In this document: positions 389-27,798 of the stretch, in pieces
Numbering within the stretch: the first letter of the stretch is position 1
Layout: each line of letters starts with the position of its first letter
Source of the DNA: a virus
Length of the DNA: 28,091 nucleotides
Strand: one strand, 5' to 3'
IMG/VR virus record: IMGVR_UViG_3300042549_001339
Coordinates: 1 to 28,091 of that record
The notes under the pieces: generated by a model
What the model was told of the DNA's origin: nothing
Seen by the model: the letters and a program-made list of their open reading frames with translations, nothing else
Database searches by the model: none
Program-made: the position numbers and the translations under genes

Positions 389-539
389 TCTCTTGCTCCT
401 TCAACGGTTCCTCTTTCAAAGGCTTACCAATAGGTTCTTCCACCACCTTCTTGCCAAAGATACGATCCCAGTTATCTCGAATCTTCTCAGCGTCTTCGTT
501 GCGCCTAGATGACCCTTTACCGCCATGCCATTGACTCAT
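381..539 (-). CDS. Conserved very small phage protein (52 aa, GGKGS-type)
   Basis: Reading ATG 537-539 leftward gives a 52-residue protein that starts MSQWHGGKGSSRRNEDAEK, continues IRDNWDRIFGKK and ends with an acidic tail. I recall this pattern (WHGGKGS, Arg/Asp, then N-W-D/E-x-I-F-G-K) from short proteins of unknown function encoded beside replication genes in several podoviruses, but I could not check this. The start overlaps the primase-helicase stop as ATGA (536-539), so translation is probably coupled to it. The gene falls below common ORF length cut-offs and is easily missed. No function is known to me. The basic, glycine-rich N-terminus could bind nucleic acid, but that is inference. 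Confidence 0.7.
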   Translation of the reverse strand: MSQWHGGKGSSRRNEDAEKIRDNWDRIFGKKVVEEPIGKPLKEEPLKEQEND

Positions 540-2137
540 AGAGCCTCCTCTTCCACTTCAATCATACGTCCAGTATACCCATTATACTGCAACTTGCAAG
601 CAGGCCCAGTGTCCCCTGAAAAGCGATTCTTAGCCACTGCAATCTTGGTCAAGTGTCGCTCCTCTTCGTTCTCGGCCATACTGTTACGCTCCAGCGTGAT
701 CACGGCATCGCTCAGTTGTACAATGGCTCCAGAGCCTCGTAACTGTGACAATGACACACTACCTCCGTCCTCGTGTCCTTGGTTGCCCTGAGGACGTTTA
801 AGGTGGCTCACACAGATCAGAGTGATGTTCAACTCTTGCACCAGTGTGCGGAGCTTGGTCATCATGTTATCAATAGCTTTACGCTCATCTCCTAAGTCCT
901 GACCTGAGACAACAATGCTAATGTGATCGAGAAAAATAACGCGACAATCACAAGCCTTCGCCATATAGCGAATTCGGTTTGAGATGTTATCGACATCAGA
1001 ACTACCGAAATGGTCAAACAAATAAATGCGATTAGAGCCAAGAGTAGCATCAAAAGCCTCCTTCAATTCCTGTTCAGTTGTTGGTGTATCCGGCAAGTGT
1101 AACAGTTTGTTAGCATGAAGACTCATAATACTTCGCGCTGTCTTACGAGTAGATTCCTCAAGGAAGAGCCCGCCGATGTTCCACTTCGTAGTCTTCAACA
1201 GAAAGTATAAGATCTCCCTGAGAAACTGACTCTTACCCAATCCACTGCCTGCGGTGACTGTAATCAACTCAGCAGGTCTGATACCGTACAAGAGCTTATT
1301 AAGGCCCTTCCAAGGGTACTGAGCCTCTGCAACTGGCTCTGGTTTGGAGATTTCCTCCCAGAGATCAGCAGCATTAACAATACCGTCAGGCACATAAGGA
1401 GTAGCCTTCCACCACTCGTTAACAAAGTCCTTAGTCGCTCCTGCAATCAGATAGTCACAAGCATCCTTGTGCCCACTCTTGTGTTGCATGATCTTGGCCT
1501 TGTTACCGAACAGTTCAGCAACTTCCTTAGCAGCCTTCTTCCCCGGCTCATCAGCATCAAAGCAGATAACAATGGAGTCGAAGCTATTGAGCCACTCATA
1601 CTGGGCCTTACAGTCCTTCAGAGCAGCCTGAGCACCGTTACGAATGCTTACTGTAGGGTAGAGAGACCCTTGCATCTGGAAAGCTGCGAGAGCGTCAAGC
1701 TCTCCCTCTGTGATGGTGACAGCTTTTCCTCCAGAGTGAAAGAGAGACTGACCGAATAGTGTAGCTCCCTTGAAGTCTCCGGTGATGGAGAATGCCTTTG
1801 TAGGAACATTGCGTTGTTTAACAGCCGTTCTAACTCCGTCTCCGTCAGTGTAAGGATAATACTGGTTGTCTCCATCGGTAGTTACTCCATACTTTTCACA
1901 AGTTGCCTGACTGATTCCTCGATCAGGGATTGATTTAAATGTACCTTTTACTTGCATTGGTGTCACGTTTTTACGTGCTGTGTTGTTTCTGATAACTGAT
2001 AGCTCCTCTGACTCATCATCTGAGGGCTTGAACGCTTGGCATACGTGGCAGTATTCATGGCCATCGTCATAGAGACTGTTGCCGTCTGAGCTACCACAGT
2101 GTTCACAGGCGATATGCCTGAGAAACTTGCTTGTCAT
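536..2137 (-). CDS. DNA primase-helicase, T7 gp4-like
   Basis: This bifunctional replication protein (533 aa) primes lagging-strand synthesis and unwinds the fork. Domains in order: an N-terminal zinc ribbon with Cys11, Cys14, Cys30 and Cys33; a TOPRIM primase fold with the catalytic Glu in TEGELDA (Glu144) and the metal-binding pair FDADEPG (Asp194, Asp196); a linker near residues 240-280; then a DnaB/RecA-like helicase with Walker A AGSGLGKS (296-303, Lys302), Walker B VIFLDH (Asp404) and a QLRGSGAI H4-type motif (465-472) before an Arg-containing C-terminus. Length matches the T7 gp4 family (about 560 aa). An AAGGAG site precedes the start. ATGA overlaps join it to the genes on both sides. 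No DNA polymerase is visible; it may lie to the left of the window. Confidence 0.95.
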   Translation of the reverse strand: MTSKFLRHIACEHCGSSDGNSLYDDGHEYCHVCQAFKPSDDESEELSVIRNNTARKNVTPMQVKGTFKSIPDRGISQATCEKYGVTTDGDNQYYPYTDGDGVRTAVKQRNVPTKAFSITGDFKGATLFGQSLFHSGGKAVTITEGELDALAAFQMQGSLYPTVSIRNGAQAALKDCKAQYEWLNSFDSIVICFDADEPGKKAAKEVAELFGNKAKIMQHKSGHKDACDYLIAGATKDFVNEWWKATPYVPDGIVNAADLWEEISKPEPVAEAQYPWKGLNKLLYGIRPAELITVTAGSGLGKSQFLREILYFLLKTTKWNIGGLFLEESTRKTARSIMSLHANKLLHLPDTPTTEQELKEAFDATLGSNRIYLFDHFGSSDVDNISNRIRYMAKACDCRVIFLDHISIVVSGQDLGDERKAIDNMMTKLRTLVQELNITLICVSHLKRPQGNQGHEDGGSVSLSQLRGSGAIVQLSDAVITLERNSMAENEEERHLTKIAVAKNRFSGDTGPACKLQYNGYTGRMIEVEEEAL

Positions 2138-3922: not shown

Positions 3923-4145
3923 AGTCATTCGCTCCCTTTGGGTTCTCATATTCAATCCTCACCATATCCTCAATGTCAAGGATTATCTGGTAGTCAACAA
4001 TGTCTTTGACGTCACTGTCAATGCCCTCGATGTACAGGTCAGTGCATGAGACAATCAAAGGCAGGGTTTCAATAGACTGTACTTCACAAAGCCCGTAGAA
4101 GTCAAAGCCCTTAAGCTTGTAACTAAATTGTTTTAGTTTAGTCAT
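3909..4145 (-). CDS. Hypothetical acidic protein (78 aa)
   Basis: A 78-residue soluble protein beginning MTKLKQFSYKLKGFDFYGLC, with beta-strand-like alternation in the first half and an acidic C-terminal half (DSDVKDIVDYQIILDIEDM). No motif recognised. The start overlaps the stop of the hexapeptide-repeat gene as ATGA, and the end overlaps the 28-aa membrane protein gene. Function unknown. Confidence 0.55.
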   Translation of the reverse strand: MTKLKQFSYKLKGFDFYGLCEVQSIETLPLIVSCTDLYIEGIDSDVKDIVDYQIILDIEDMVRIEYENPKGANDYENQ

Positions 4146-4657
4146 TCTGTAACCCCAAAGTTAAAATCAATCAATTGACAAAACAGGCGGTATTGTTCTA
4201 AATGTTCTTTATTGTCTTTATGAGTCTTCTCAATAGCTTCCGAAAATTCTTTTACAGTACCGCTAAAGCACCCACAATTCACACGTATTCCGATTTTAGA
4301 ATCCCTATAGGCAGTAGTAAACCTACCCGAAGATTTTGAAGGTCCGATAACTAGATAATCTGAAAATTTTTCAATAATTCCGTGACCGGACACCAGTGCA
4401 TTTCCGAACACCTGTGCATCTCCGGTCACCAGTGCATTTCCGTACACCTGTGCATTTCCGAACACCTGTGCATCTCCGGTCACCAGTGCATTTCCGTACA
4501 CCTGTGCATTTCCGAACACCTGTGCATTTCCGGAAACCTGTGCATTTCCGAACACCTGTGCATTATCGAACATCCGTGCATTATCGAACACCCGTGCATT
4601 ATCGGACACCCGTGCATCTCCAAAAATGTGTTTACCTTTTACATTAAAAACAGTCAT
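4142..4657 (-). CDS. Hexapeptide-repeat beta-helix protein with conserved C-terminal domain (171 aa)
   Basis: Residues about 10-92 consist of some 14 tandem hexapeptides of the form N-A-x-V-x-G/D (for example NAQVFG, NAQVYG, NALVTG). This periodicity is typical of a left-handed beta helix. The C-terminal part (about 95-171) contains IGPSKSSGRFTTAYR and VNCGCFSGTVKEFSEAIEKT. I associate this domain with repeat-bearing proteins in other phages and prophages, where its role is undefined. AGAGG lies 7 bases upstream. It is linked by ATGA overlaps to both neighbours. The repeats are nearly identical at the DNA level (see 4422-4529), so copy number could change by slippage or recombination. An acyltransferase role, known for other hexapeptide proteins, is not supported because no catalytic His motif is visible. 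Confidence 0.7.
   Translation of the reverse strand: MTVFNVKGKHIFGDARVSDNARVFDNARMFDNAQVFGNAQVSGNAQVFGNAQVYGNALVTGDAQVFGNAQVYGNALVTGDAQVFGNALVSGHGIIEKFSDYLVIGPSKSSGRFTTAYRDSKIGIRVNCGCFSGTVKEFSEAIEKTHKDNKEHLEQYRLFCQLIDFNFGVTE
4422..4529. repeat. Two tandem 54-bp units inside the hexapeptide-repeat gene
   Basis: Bases 4422-4475 and 4476-4529 are the same 54-bp unit with one visible difference, at the last base. Each unit is three 18-bp subunits encoding two hexapeptides. The 18-bp subunit pattern continues, less exactly, from about 4385 to 4620. Confidence 0.85.
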
Positions 4658-6351: not shown

Positions 6352-6585
6352 TTAACCAAAATTCACAAAGCATTGAGCGGCATAGATGGCCTTCGTCTTT
6401 TGCATTGGCTTACTAAGCACGATGTTATAGACACCATCTTCATCATGCAAACGGCCTTTGACTGACCAGACCTTGGATCCTTTGAAGCGAGTCAAGAGAG
6501 CTTTACGGCTAGTGAATTCACCGCTCACGGTCATCTGTTCAAAGTTAGTATCTTTGTAGCTGCTGATCTGGGTTTCATACAACAT
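6352..6585 (-). CDS. Hypothetical protein (77 aa), first gene left of the non-coding region
   Basis: The frame is open from 6678, but I choose ATG 6583-6585 because AAAGGA lies about 10 bases upstream and the longer N-terminus has no ribosome binding site. The product begins MLYETQISSYKDTNFEQM and includes SGEFTSRKALLTRFKGSKVW and DGVYNIVLSK. It is a small beta-rich soluble protein by appearance. It is the first gene of the second leftward early unit, next to the origin-like region. I found no convincing consensus promoter for it. Function unknown. Confidence 0.5.
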   Translation of the reverse strand: MLYETQISSYKDTNFEQMTVSGEFTSRKALLTRFKGSKVWSVKGRLHDEDGVYNIVLSKPMQKTKAIYAAQCFVNFG

Positions 6586-6681
6586 GATGTTTGAGTCCTT
6601 TAAAATAGCCTGCACCGTGCCTGCTATGTTTTTTATGTAGCAAACACCGTGCCAACTGCTTAGGAATTTCAGCATCACAGG

Positions 6682-6762
6682 TTATCCACAGGCATTTACA
6701 GACACAAATAAATACTTATCCATAGGCAAATAAGTTATTCACAATTCTTAGAGTTATCCACA
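6682..6762 (+). other. Array of four DnaA-box-like 9-mers, putative replication origin
   Basis: All four are in the same orientation: TTATCCACA (6682-6690), TTATCCATA (6716-6724), TTATTCACA (6735-6743) and TTATCCACA (6754-6762). Three match the bacterial DnaA consensus TTATNCACA and one differs at one base. The last three start exactly 19 bases apart. This suggests recruitment of host DnaA, as an origin or as a titration site. Confidence 0.6.
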
Positions 6763-6763
6763 A

Positions 6764-6832
6764 GGTGCACTGATCTGGTGCTTTTATGCACCGATAAAGG
6801 GATGTTAGTGGATACTATGCACCATGTTGGTG
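6764..6832. repeat. Iteron-like TGCACC/GGTGCA repeats beside the DnaA boxes
   Basis: TATGCACC occurs at 6785-6792 and 6816-6823. The complementary GGTGCA occurs at 6764-6769, and GGTGC occurs at 6777-6781. The last pairs with GCACC (6788-6792) as a small hairpin. CACCA-TGT-TGGTG (6820-6832) is a second hairpin. Confidence 0.4.
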
Positions 6833-6842
6833 TACTTTGCTT

Positions 6843-6865
6843 GGCGCTGAAGTAGGCGCTGAAGT
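6843..6865 (+). repeat. Tandem direct repeat GGCGCTGAAGT
   Basis: The 11-mer GGCGCTGAAGT is present at 6843-6853 and 6855-6865, separated by one base, giving a 12-base period. The second copy also forms CGCTG-AAGTC-CAGCG (6857-6871). Confidence 0.6.
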
Positions 6866-6950
6866 CCAGCGTTTAGGGTCCTACGCCGCCTCTCACATCT
6901 GCTTAAATATTAGGCACTATCCTCGAAAGTACTTTAACATCCTATGATGG

Positions 6951-6978: not shown

Positions 6979-7142
6979 ACTTGTGTGTACGCTAGCGAAC
7001 ATAGTAGTTAGTTAGCGCTTACTTCATAGGGGGAGGGGTAGGTGATGTGTGAGAACTTTGACGGAGCCCCTGACGCTCACAAAAGAGTAAAATAAGGAAT
7101 ATTACCCGGATAAAACTATGGAGTAAAGAATAAGCTAAGTAC

Positions 7143-7170
7143 TTGACAGGACTGGGAAATATGCTATGCT
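7143..7170 (+). promoter_or_regulatory. Rightward promoter with extended -10 (probable)
   Basis: TTGACA (7143-7148), a 16-base spacer and TATGCT (7165-7170) preceded by TGC, an extended -10. A second TGC-TATAAC follows at once. CTTGACAGGA here is repeated at the stronger promoter 184 bases downstream. The AGTACT palindrome at 7137-7144 overlaps the -35 box. Confidence 0.55.
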
Positions 7171-7326: not shown

Positions 7327-7355
7327 TTGACAGGATAGACAAAGTGTGGTATAAT
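7327..7355 (+). promoter_or_regulatory. Main rightward sigma-70 promoter, full consensus
   Basis: TTGACA (7327-7332), a 17-base spacer and TATAAT (7350-7355), with TGG directly before the -10, making it an extended -10 as well. It would start transcription near 7362 and drive the terminase and structural genes after a leader of about 250 bases. Confidence 0.9.
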
Positions 7356-7615: not shown

Positions 7616-7981
7616 ATGGAACAAGAAGAACATGAAAAGAAACGTAAAGCTGGAAGACCAAAGAAGTCTGAGCTTACGGAAATAAAAGAGAGTAGAAGTG
7701 TTGGCAGGCCTAAAGGTGAAGCGGCCATCATCAATGAATATAAGCTACGTATGCTTAATTCACCTAAGAGTGCTAAGGTACTTGAAGCCATTTACGATGC
7801 TGCTCTAAACGATGAACATAAGAATCAAGCTGCTGCATGGAAGCTGATCGTTGATCGTGTCGTACCTATCTCGGCCTTTGAGTCTGCTAAGCAAGGCGGA
7901 GGTGCTCCTCAGATCTCCATCAACATCACAGGGCTTAACAGTCCTACGGTAAGCACCGATGAGGACATAATTGATGTCTGA
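7616..7981 (+). CDS. terS: Terminase small subunit (probable)
   Basis: A 121-residue protein directly upstream of and overlapping the large terminase gene, the usual place of the packaging-site-binding small subunit. The N-terminus is very basic, with two AT-hook-like cores (AGRPKK and VGRPKG) suited to DNA contact. The middle (INEYKLRMLNSPKSAKVLEA) is helical, and the C-terminus ends in an acidic tail (STDEDIIDV). AAAGGA lies about 9 bases before ATG 7616. The assignment is by position, size and DNA-binding features, as terS sequences diverge widely. A 22-codon frame opening at 7567 (MSKRINGLSPLERIK...) overlaps its start and has no ribosome binding site; it could be a lost N-terminal extension. 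This is the first gene of the rightward transcript. Confidence 0.75.
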   Translation: MEQEEHEKKRKAGRPKKSELTEIKESRSVGRPKGEAAIINEYKLRMLNSPKSAKVLEAIYDAALNDEHKNQAAAWKLIVDRVVPISAFESAKQGGGAPQISINITGLNSPTVSTDEDIIDV

Positions 7982-9230
7982 ACTTAACTTTGCTTTACTG
8001 AAATGGCAACAGAGTGTCTTCAAAGACTCTCATCGCTTCAAGGTGGTAGCTGCTGGTCGTCGCTGTGGTAAGTCTAGGCTATCTGCTGTTACGCTACTTA
8101 TAGAGGCTTTAAACTGCCCTGAAGGGTCAGCAGTGATGTACATTGCGCCTACCCTCGGCATGGCCCGTACGATTATATGGGACTTGCTACATGAGCTTGG
8201 TCGTCCAGTTATAAAGGCTAGTCACGTAAATAACCTAGAGATCACTTTGATAAATGGCCGCAAAATTCTTGTACGTGGTGCAGATAACCCAGACGCTTTG
8301 CGTGGCGTGTCTTTAACGTATGTCGTTATGGACGAATGTGCTTTCATTAAAGAGGATGTCTGGCAAAAGATCATTCGTGCTGCTTTGTCTGACAAGAAAG
8401 GTAGAGCTCTATTCATCTCAACTCCCTCTGGCCGTAACTGGTTCTATGACACTTTCAAGCTAGGCTTGTCTGGTGATGATGAAGAGTGGAAGGCATGGCA
8501 CTTTACCACTGCTGATAACGAGACTATTGACCCTAAAGAGATTGAAGCAGCTAAGCGTACCTTGAGTAGCTTTGCGTTCAAGCAGGAATACTTATCCAGC
8601 TTTGATACAGCAGGTGCTGACATCTTCAAGCAAGAGTGGATTAAGAAGGATGAGATGCCTAAGCAAGGCTCCTATGTCATTGCCATTGACTTGGCTGGCT
8701 TTGAGGATGTATCAGCAGGATCTCAGAATAAGTCTAGGCTTGACGAGACAGCTATGGCTATCGTCTTGGTTGGCGATGATGGTAAGTGGTATGTTGAGAA
8801 GATTGAACATGGACGGTGGGATATTAAAGATACCTGCTTCCGTATCCTCAAGCTTATCAAGGACTACAGACCGTTATCGGTAGGTATCGAAAGAGGTACA
8901 GCCAAGAATGCCGTTATGACTGTTCTACAGGACATGATGAGGCAATACAATACCTTTGCTCACATTCAGACGCTCACACACGGTAACAAGAAGAAGACTG
9001 ATCGTGTGGTATGGGCACTGCAAGGAAAGTTTGAGCATGGGCGGATTGTCCTGAACAAAGATGAAGATTGGTCTGAGTTTGAAGATCAGCTTATCCTTTT
9101 CCCTACAAAAGGCGTTCATGATGACCTTGTAGACGCTTTAGCTTATATCGAACAACTTGCCCTATCCTCATTTATGCCTGATTATGAGCAAGACGATTAT
9201 GAAATTTTTGACCCCATTTCAGGTTATTGA
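7974..9230 (+). CDS. terL: Terminase large subunit (packaging ATPase-nuclease)
   Basis: A 418-residue motor protein that translocates DNA into the prohead and cuts concatemers. ATPase domain: Walker A AAGRRCGKS (26-34, Lys33), a YIAPT adenine-contact-like segment, Walker B VVMDE (Asp120, Glu121) and the STPSGRNWFYD coupling motif. RNase H-like nuclease domain: IAIDLAG (Asp239), GIERG (Glu306) and HDDLVDALAY (Asp383/384 and Asp387), the expected acidic metal-binding set. I start at ATG 7974, which has GAGG about 9 bases upstream, rather than at the TTG one codon earlier. It overlaps terS by 8 bases. The size is typical of compact podovirus large terminases. Confidence 0.93.
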   Translation: MSELNFALLKWQQSVFKDSHRFKVVAAGRRCGKSRLSAVTLLIEALNCPEGSAVMYIAPTLGMARTIIWDLLHELGRPVIKASHVNNLEITLINGRKILVRGADNPDALRGVSLTYVVMDECAFIKEDVWQKIIRAALSDKKGRALFISTPSGRNWFYDTFKLGLSGDDEEWKAWHFTTADNETIDPKEIEAAKRTLSSFAFKQEYLSSFDTAGADIFKQEWIKKDEMPKQGSYVIAIDLAGFEDVSAGSQNKSRLDETAMAIVLVGDDGKWYVEKIEHGRWDIKDTCFRILKLIKDYRPLSVGIERGTAKNAVMTVLQDMMRQYNTFAHIQTLTHGNKKKTDRVVWALQGKFEHGRIVLNKDEDWSEFEDQLILFPTKGVHDDLVDALAYIEQLALSSFMPDYEQDDYEIFDPISGY

Positions 9231-26422: not shown

Positions 26423-27055
26423 TTACTCTACCGTTTTAACTTCCTTAACCTTCTTAGGCTTAGGAGGCTTACTCAGTCCATTAAGATATTTGTACCTACG
26501 TACCATACGCTTACCAGACTCTTCAGCATCAAACCAGAACTCCTTACCATTCTTAAGTTCTTCCAGTTCCTTGTCTGTTAAGAATCCTTTGTAGGCTTGG
26601 TCAAGCAGTTTATTAATCTGCCTTGTAGCAAAGTCAGTCTGTCCTTTAACATTTGGAACAGTACCAATAGAACCATAATGGGCAGTGTGCAGCATAAATT
26701 CAGCAGAATCAGCAATGTAACACTCAGGAGCCATGCAAGCCAACATAGAGGCAGCACTATACGCAGCACCAATAACAGTAACAGAGACTTGACCACGACA
26801 ATCTTTCATTGCTTCGATCACTTGCCAAATACTATCAGTACGTCCTCCTGAGCTATTGACAAGCATGTTAACAGAATCATTCTCACTACAGGTAGCAAGG
26901 CAGTGGATAACGTCACGGTAGGCGCTAGGGGCTACGATGTCATCATCAATGAACACCAGATGTGTGTGCATCTGCTGAGTGATAGTGCGGATAAGACCTT
27001 TCTGTTCCAAAGGCATCATCAACAGTTCTTCCAGACTTTCATTTGCTTTAGTCAT
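26423..27055 (-). CDS. ClpP-like serine protease
   Basis: A 210-residue protein of the ClpP/crotonase superfamily. NSSGGRTDS (67-75) is the oxyanion-hole strand. The nucleophile is probably Ser103 in AYSAASMLA, aligned with the A-S-M of ClpP, and the histidine is His123 in MLHTAHYG. The length is near that of bacterial ClpP (about 200), with a Lys/Pro-rich C-terminal tail (SKPPKPKKVKEVKTVE). Phage ClpP-like proteases often mature the prohead, but this one lies away from the capsid genes, beside phoH, so a role in host protein degradation or in partnership with a host Clp ATPase is equally possible. Start in an ATGA overlap with the PhoH-like gene. Confidence 0.82.
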   Translation of the reverse strand: MTKANESLEELLMMPLEQKGLIRTITQQMHTHLVFIDDDIVAPSAYRDVIHCLATCSENDSVNMLVNSSGGRTDSIWQVIEAMKDCRGQVSVTVIGAAYSAASMLACMAPECYIADSAEFMLHTAHYGSIGTVPNVKGQTDFATRQINKLLDQAYKGFLTDKELEELKNGKEFWFDAEESGKRMVRRYKYLNGLSKPPKPKKVKEVKTVE

Positions 27056-27798
27056 TCACCGTCCTCATACTTAGTTTTAGCAATAATGTAATTTTTTACG
27101 AGAGAACTTCGCACAATATCTTCAATATGAAATTCAATACGTACAAATTCCTTCATTTTAGCAGCAATGTCAAAGAACTTAAGGATACCGCTTTTATCAT
27201 CTTTTTTCTTTAAGTCAGTTTGCCTGTAGTCCCCACAAAACACGATCTTAGATTTATCTCCTACTCGTGTAATAACTGTGTCCAATTCCTCGAAGGTTAG
27301 ATTCTGAACTTCATCCACAACAATGATGCTGTTCGAGAAGGTAGTACCACGAATGAACGAAGTTGAGACAAACTCGATATGTCCTTGTTCAACAAGTCGA
27401 TCCCAAGCATCTTTGCGTTTGAACAAGTCACTACAGATCTGTCGATAAGGTTGGATGTAAACTTCCATCTTTTCATCCGCATCTCCCGGCAAGAAACCGA
27501 TGTCACGGCTTTGAACACTGCTCCGGATAATAGTCACCTTGTTAAAGGGATTGTTACGATCCATAGCCTCTTCCAAAGCCTTGTATAAGGCAATGTATGT
27601 CTTACCTGTACCTGCTACGCCATGCAGAGCCATGAAGTAATTAGAGGCTTGATAGGCTTCAAAGAAGTCCATCTGTTTTTCTGTCTTAGGCTTGATAACA
27701 GTCATATCATCTAGCTTCAACTTCAAACTATTACTGACTTTCTCCCGAGGTGTAAGCTCCTTAGCTGGGATTGCTCGGTTCATCTGTTTACTAGCCAT
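27052..27798 (-). CDS. PhoH-like ATPase
   Basis: A 248-residue P-loop protein of the PhoH family. Walker A is HGVAGTGKTYIA (59-70, Lys66). The family signature IRSSVQSRDIGFLPGDADEK (91-110) is followed by MEVYIQPY, then SFIRGTTFSNSIIVVDEVQN with Walker B (Asp162, Glu163), and GDYRQTD (189-195) as sensor. It lacks the N-terminal RNA-binding region of larger PhoH proteins, apart from a short basic leader. PhoH-like genes are common in phages; roles in RNA metabolism or phosphate stress are proposed but not settled. It is followed by the ClpP-like gene with a 4-base overlap. Confidence 0.9.
   Translation of the reverse strand: MASKQMNRAIPAKELTPREKVSNSLKLKLDDMTVIKPKTEKQMDFFEAYQASNYFMALHGVAGTGKTYIALYKALEEAMDRNNPFNKVTIIRSSVQSRDIGFLPGDADEKMEVYIQPYRQICSDLFKRKDAWDRLVEQGHIEFVSTSFIRGTTFSNSIIVVDEVQNLTFEELDTVITRVGDKSKIVFCGDYRQTDLKKKDDKSGILKFFDIAAKMKEFVRIEFHIEDIVRSSLVKNYIIAKTKYEDGE

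Follow-up and report, generated by a model that had tools for sequence, protein, structure and literature searches.

Genomic Layout of the Control Region

The window, by which we mean the whole stretch of 28,091 nucleotides analysed here, is a 28-kb record of an uncultured water phage and represents a fragment of its genome. Near-complete relatives span 37-40 kb, and 9 of the 20 assembled for comparison close via end overlaps of 55-127 bases. The features under study fall in a ~940-bp non-coding stretch, flanked on one side by a leftward operon with the primase-helicase gene and on the other by a rightward operon with the putative TerS and TerL genes (Table 1). An earlier note on this DNA had stated that the phage encodes its own primase-helicase, which is borne out by a gp4-type gene; the relatives add DNA polymerase A (PolA) and endonuclease I, along with a 5'-3' exonuclease, RNR, ThyX and more, in the part that the window lacks. 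When used as a marker, the first leftward gene was found solely in a contig that barely differs from the window. The leftward strand also encodes a 171-aa protein with YdcK beta-solenoid repeats, which stem from internal tandem DNA repeats of ~36-54 bp (4142-4657, -), and the far end of the leftward operon carries Clp-protease-like and PhoH genes (26423-27798, -).

Table 1. Features of the window and their coordinates
Feature	Position	Strand	Remarks
T7 gp4-type primase-helicase	536-2137	-	
First leftward gene	6352-6585	-	likely ATG 6585 (ORF list: GTG 6678); no family match
CAGGCACGGTGCAGGCT, degenerate second copy of the sigma54-like motif	6607-6623	-	32 bp away from the first copy
TTGGCACGGTGTTTGCT, sigma54 -24/-12-like motif	6639-6655	-	14/14; ~53 nt upstream of the likely ATG 6585
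DnaA box 1, TTATCCACA	6682-6690	+	perfect; aligned and identical in L099
DnaA box 2, TTATCCATA	6716-6724	+	probably decayed; L099 has TTATCCACA here; no enrichment of the variant in relatives
DnaA box 3, TTATTCACA	6735-6743	+	TTATCCACA at this place in L099
DnaA box 4, TTATCCACA	6754-6762	+	perfect
Inverted repeat TGCACTGATCTGGTGCT, NtrC-site-like	6766-6782		TGCACY-N5-RGTGCA, 1 mismatch
Inverted repeat TGCACCATGTTGGTGTA, NtrC-site-like	6818-6834		TGCACY-N5-RGTGCA, 1 mismatch
Short block CCTACGCCGCCTCTCACA	6880-6898		recognisable in many relatives
Candidate origin core (non-coding)	7029-7097	+	G-rich tract, ~20 nt, TTTG..GGAGCC..CTCACAAAA, AT-rich stretch
Sigma70-like promoter, TTGACA-16-TATGCT	7143-7170	+	rightward
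Sigma70-like promoter, TTGACA-17-TATAAT	7327-7355	+	rightward; 12/12
Putative small terminase (TerS)	7616-7981	+	121 aa, beside TerL; lineage-conserved; no library match
Terminase large subunit (TerL)	7971-9230	+	

No DNA-level relatives were found among isolates, with the best isolate primase matches staying below 50% and the best-listed TerL match at 25%. The label "T7-like" stands as far as the gp4-type primase-helicase is concerned. It fails for the single-subunit RNA polymerase of the Autographiviridae, as no T7-type RNA polymerase was detected in any of 12 records in a search that did detect the positive control S-CBP3; the window itself is only a fragment. With PolA, a gp4-type primase-helicase, endonuclease I, divergent operons and no RNA polymerase found, layout and content rather resemble those of the Zobellviridae/Cobavirinae. 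These phages (Siovirus: SIO1, P12053L) have genomes of ~38-40 kb with divergent replication and structural operons and encode PolA, primase-helicase, PhoH, ThyX and RNR but no phage RNA polymerase (PMC6775973). The window phage differs from such isolates in its distant primase and in having no close TerL among them, and P12053L holds two scattered TTATACACA words only, with no cluster. Searching prophages and genomes for a host gave one match, a weak one, to the 4.7-kb contig L201 (CAIUZV010000033.1), binned in a betaproteobacterial MAG. It has 64% TerL and shares the G-rich core, and is the only hint of a host. We found nothing specific on DnaA or sigma54 control in such phages in the open-access literature.

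The Array of DnaA-type Boxes

The four 9-mers are present as previously described, all on the plus strand and in one orientation, and the starts of boxes 2, 3 and 4 are indeed exactly 19 bp apart, with a first gap of 34 bp. Three of the four are exact TTATNCACA matches, and only one further copy occurs in the window (19617, - strand). Among 1000 dinucleotide shuffles of the window, the maximum was two same-strand exact boxes per 81 bp (reached in 3 shuffles) vs three observed, in agreement with the claim that a chance origin is very unlikely. Because the L001 contig, 100% identical to the window over its first 8.5 kb (8522 bp), holds the same four sites, an assembly slip can be ruled out for the array.

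A more distant comparison is offered by L099, which carries TTATCCACA at all four places with the same 34-19-19 spacing. Between the window and L099, the boxes are 34/36 identical (94%) vs 30/45 (67%) for the spacers, so that the boxes have been retained while the sequence between them diverged. Box 2 looks like a decayed DnaA box, since its variant TTATCCATA is not enriched in the control regions of relatives (1.5x only) and L099 has TTATCCACA there. Two repeats reported beside the boxes also need correcting: the "TGCACC iterons" do lie there but are better described as inverted repeats, and the "11-bp tandem repeat" exists (GGCGCTGAAGT at 6843 and 6855) with a 12-bp step. Single-strand folding over the array was not significant (z -1.1), and the control region gave no credible RNA-structure match in Rfam.

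Enrichment and Specificity of the Boxes in Relatives

Counting the boxes genome-wide in the phage and its relatives, as had been suggested, allows for a quantitative view of their placement. We compared 65 distinct control regions of close relatives with the rest of the same contigs; these are metagenomic contigs, and a box-less region may in some cases be incomplete or, rarely, chimeric through assembly. TTATNCACA occurs 98 times in 104 kb of control regions vs 49 times in 1029 kb elsewhere, a ~20-fold enrichment. At least two such boxes are found in 32/65 control regions, vs at most 11 regions for any of 400 scrambled words. Single-base variants display strikingly unequal enrichment: 69x for TTATCCACA, 60x for TTGTCCACA, 10x for TTATACACA, 5x for TTATGCACA and ~1-3x for the others. 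The enriched variants are those tolerated by DnaA, and both the consensus and the limits of variation match bacterial DnaA. With a positional conservation across relatives beyond chance (enrichment 20-170x), the comparison supports reading the 9-mers in the window as genuine DnaA-type boxes on which selection acts in the divergent control region.

The position of the boxes is equally uniform farther out in the lineage. A blind scan for 19-bp-spaced boxes gave 116 newly fetched loci, 46 of them homologous to this phage. Together with a scan for box pairs, it placed the boxes within 1.2 kb upstream of TerS in 50/50 loci with a TerS homologue, with up to 13 boxes per array; loci found through box patterns inform on position, not on prevalence. 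A scan by TerL alignment, free of selection on boxes, yielded 95 boxes in 144 kb upstream of TerL vs 1 in 258 kb. No box cluster was seen in T7, HTVC115P (1-50000), P12053L or part of S-CBP3.

Among viral contigs in general, most TTATCCACA pairs in the matches listed are non-coding, and the pairs are helically phased (11-13, 20-22 and 29-33 bp), with a 10.25-bp period and a vector strength of 0.73 (at least 170 pairs from at least 120 viral loci, L202-L321). A reversed control word displays codon-like 3-bp spacing in coding DNA. The 19-bp step of the window lies off the common helical phase of these pairs.

A G-rich Core Beside the Boxes

The earlier note missed two features of the region, namely the G-rich core at 7029 and the TTGGCA...TTGC motif at 6639-6655. 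The core, a lineage-wide feature whose G tract reads G5-6AG4, is present in 60/65 control regions of close relatives, with or without boxes. It has no match in Rfam; its G tract is reminiscent of mitochondrial CSBII, a lead only. In distant members of the lineage (TerL ~52%), the last box often abuts the G-rich tract, followed by ..CACAAAA ~40 nt on and then by an AT-rich stretch; box starts lie 12-20 nt from the G-run in 9/13 measurable cases of the TerL-alignment scan. In the window, ~270-350 bp separate the boxes from the core, and the leftward promoter is closer to them. Checking the GC-skew turning point, as proposed earlier, placed the minimum 0.04-1.7 kb from the core in 10/10 circular relatives, a coincidence confounded by gene orientation, as gene direction also changes there. 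We regard the core as a candidate for the phage replication origin. The basal unwinding system of oriC includes DnaA-trios (NAN, three or more) within ~16 bp of a box (PMC8287927). Judged by eye only, the NAN rule is too permissive around box 1; the TAGTAG-like triplets of distant relatives are more than 16 bp away from the last box.

Neighbouring Promoter-like Motifs

The motif next to the first leftward gene conforms to the sigma54 promoter pattern (GG-N10-GC, YTGGCACGR...TTGCW, upstream of a gene start), and several relatives have it at a distance of exactly 11 nt from the start of the first box. Its exact form YTGGCAYGRnnnTTGCW was counted 13 times in control regions totalling 110 kb and 0 times in the remaining 632 kb, and the NtrC-site-like inverted repeat class 14 times vs 0 in 632 kb; several motif classes were defined by inspecting the very regions later counted, with the rest of the genomes as control. 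The phages searched yielded no sigma54 activator gene. In distant relatives (L602, L606, L626, L564, L445 and others), the region upstream of TerS carries dense arrays of the related 17-bp element YTGGCAYR-N4-TTGCW, with up to ~10 copies on both strands, and with iteron-like packing; these arrays tend to replace DnaA boxes. We set aside a plain sigma54 promoter reading of the TTGGCA motif as unproven, since such dense two-strand arrays are unlike promoters; because of them, TTGGCAYR-N4-TTGCW may be the site of another DNA-binding protein. A direct repeat, TGTTACAAACTGTTACA, was noticed upstream of sigma70 TTGACA left promoters of relatives (e.g. G011, L102); it occurs 23 times in control regions and 0 times in the rest.

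Exchange of the Array Between Relatives

On a TerL tree of 60 rows, box presence or absence changes 15 times, and rows with identical TerL differ in box presence. Conservation in relatives, on which the earlier proposal had been made to depend, thus holds for the position of the boxes and breaks down for their constant presence. At least 11 gains or losses are forced by well-supported branches, making an obligatory DnaA-dependent origin unlikely. Boxes are absent from about half of the close relatives sharing the same replisome, and near-identical phages occur with and without the array, which argues against the boxes being indispensable for this replisome.

The breakpoints of the swaps are sharp. 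To the right of the boxes, L099 matches the box-less L102 at 94.7% identity, and to the left of them the two are unrelated. L525, which has boxes, and L151, which has CGGCAATATTTGCCG repeats, show 92.6% identity starting at the TTGGCA motif and continuing into the first leftward gene; upstream, they differ. What occupies the place of the array varies: TTGGCAYR-N4-TTGCW repeats; the repeated inverted repeat CGGCAATATTTGCCG, which replaces the boxes upstream of the leftward motif and gene in L078, L151 and L158; or parS sites, with perfect ParB-type copies (TGTTNCACGTGAAACA) in the control regions of L104 and L107, both box-less, and also in L514. Across the 61 regions of the TerL-alignment scan, at least two boxes are found in 14, at least two TTGGCAYR-N4-TTGCW elements in 21 and both in 1 (Fisher p=0.012, a statistic that ignores kinship). 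The iteron TAAGTTAA was considered as a substitute in box-less relatives and rejected, because relatives with and without boxes alike have it to the right of the core.

Judged from these comparisons, the array is an exchangeable accessory cassette and probably not an essential oriC. Tentatively, the origin/control locus as a whole might be an exchangeable docking platform for host chromosome-biology proteins, with DnaA arrays, TTGGCAYR-N4-TTGCW, CGGCAATATTTGCCG and parS as its cassettes. If so, similar phages could start replication or early transcription via different host factors, and the swapping of factors would perhaps match hosts or avoid interference between co-infecting relatives.

Proposed Role of the Array and Alternatives

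The reading we favor, with a probability of roughly 0.55, is that the array provides docking sites for host DnaA at the origin/control locus, aiding origin activation and/or early leftward transcription. Host DnaA would be brought close to both the G-rich core and the promoter of the first leftward gene, and there would help to open or activate the phage origin and/or tune early leftward transcription. Afterwards, the phage primase-helicase and PolA would take over replication. The binding of DnaA, the origin activity of the core and this order of events are what we infer from sequence. A purely regulatory role fits as well, because the boxes seem dispensable, as the rows with identical TerL illustrate.

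Such a role is taken furthest if the boxes are only transcriptional operators, with DnaA acting upstream of the first leftward promoter (sigma54-type in the window) and coupling early phage transcription to the cell-cycle or nitrogen state of the host, the NtrC-like sites lying further upstream. That DnaA regulates transcription is known (PMC8203912). The order of gene start, TTGGCA..TTGC, boxes and TGCAC inverted repeats recurs in the window, L099, G008 and L525, and the L525/L151 pair, with shared motif and gene behind different upstream elements, is as an operator swap would look. However, most other box-bearing relatives have their boxes near the core or around the motif, their leftward promoters are of sigma70 type where one was seen, boxes abut the core in distant relatives, and the two-strand packing of the TTGGCA motif there is at odds with a promoter. 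We regard an operator-only function as the main alternative, possible but less likely than the favored reading. A packaging (cos/pac) site at the core, with the boxes as mere neighbours lacking a replication role, would account for the core closely preceding TerS/TerL in every part of the lineage. Contigs that end near the core do so at scattered points, 16-350 bp away on either side, without a sharp end, on which ground a cos site judged by contig ends was rejected; several relatives close as circles, and the DnaA-box specificity would be left unexplained, all of which renders this option unlikely.

The earlier note had left the choice between origin use with host DnaA and titration of DnaA to slow host initiation, for which datA is a precedent. 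A genome present in many copies would, through its high-affinity boxes, compete for DnaA. Yet 2-5 boxes per genome matter only once many genome copies exist, and since titration needs no fixed position, the 20-170-fold concentration of boxes in one locus makes it quite unlikely. Action at the origin/control locus fits better, because the boxes concentrate there and abut the core in distant relatives. Finally, the 9-mers could serve a phage-encoded protein that mimics DnaA specificity, and the alternation with TTGGCAYR-N4-TTGCW at the same place makes an initiator swap imaginable. We consider this very unlikely, given that the consensus and the variants allowed are those of bacterial DnaA, that 0 of 22 phage records searched contained a DnaA C-terminal domain, and that the word and its helical phasing recur in unrelated viruses among the matches listed.

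Comparison with Known Systems

Textbook accounts treat T7-type replication modules as needing no host initiator. In a widespread uncultured lineage where DnaA arrays are kept, lost and re-acquired by a conserved core, use of the host initiator would be an interchangeable option. The array raises testable questions on the coupling of phage infection to the host cell cycle, and DnaA-box pairs might make candidate origins easy to spot in phages from the environment.

The locus is like a bacterial oriC in that a TTATNCACA cluster, a GC-rich tract and an AT-rich stretch share one non-coding locus, such clustering being an oriC-type trait, and in the 11-12 bp tandem boxes of distant phage relatives. 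In contrast to oriC, the phage array is optional and rapidly lost or exchanged, the boxes of the window lie 270 bp from the GC tract, and the phage supplies its own helicase-primase and polymerase. P1-type plasmid-prophage origins carry host DnaA boxes combined with other repeats, as does the candidate origin here; unlike them, the window phage has no recognised Rep gene or plasmid maintenance genes. For PseuGes_254, DnaA boxes at a putative phage origin were predicted with Ori-Finder (PMC11512268), in that case from a single genome without a comparative test. At pR/pO-ori of phage lambda, two sites resembling DnaA boxes are footprinted by DnaA, which also stimulates transcription (PMC3985674). 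The likeness, here predicted, is that sites for host DnaA adjoin a phage origin and a promoter, with replication and transcription entwined. Lambda, however, is temperate, and its O and P proteins load host DnaB, whereas the present lineage combines a T7-type replisome with more boxes and cassette exchange.
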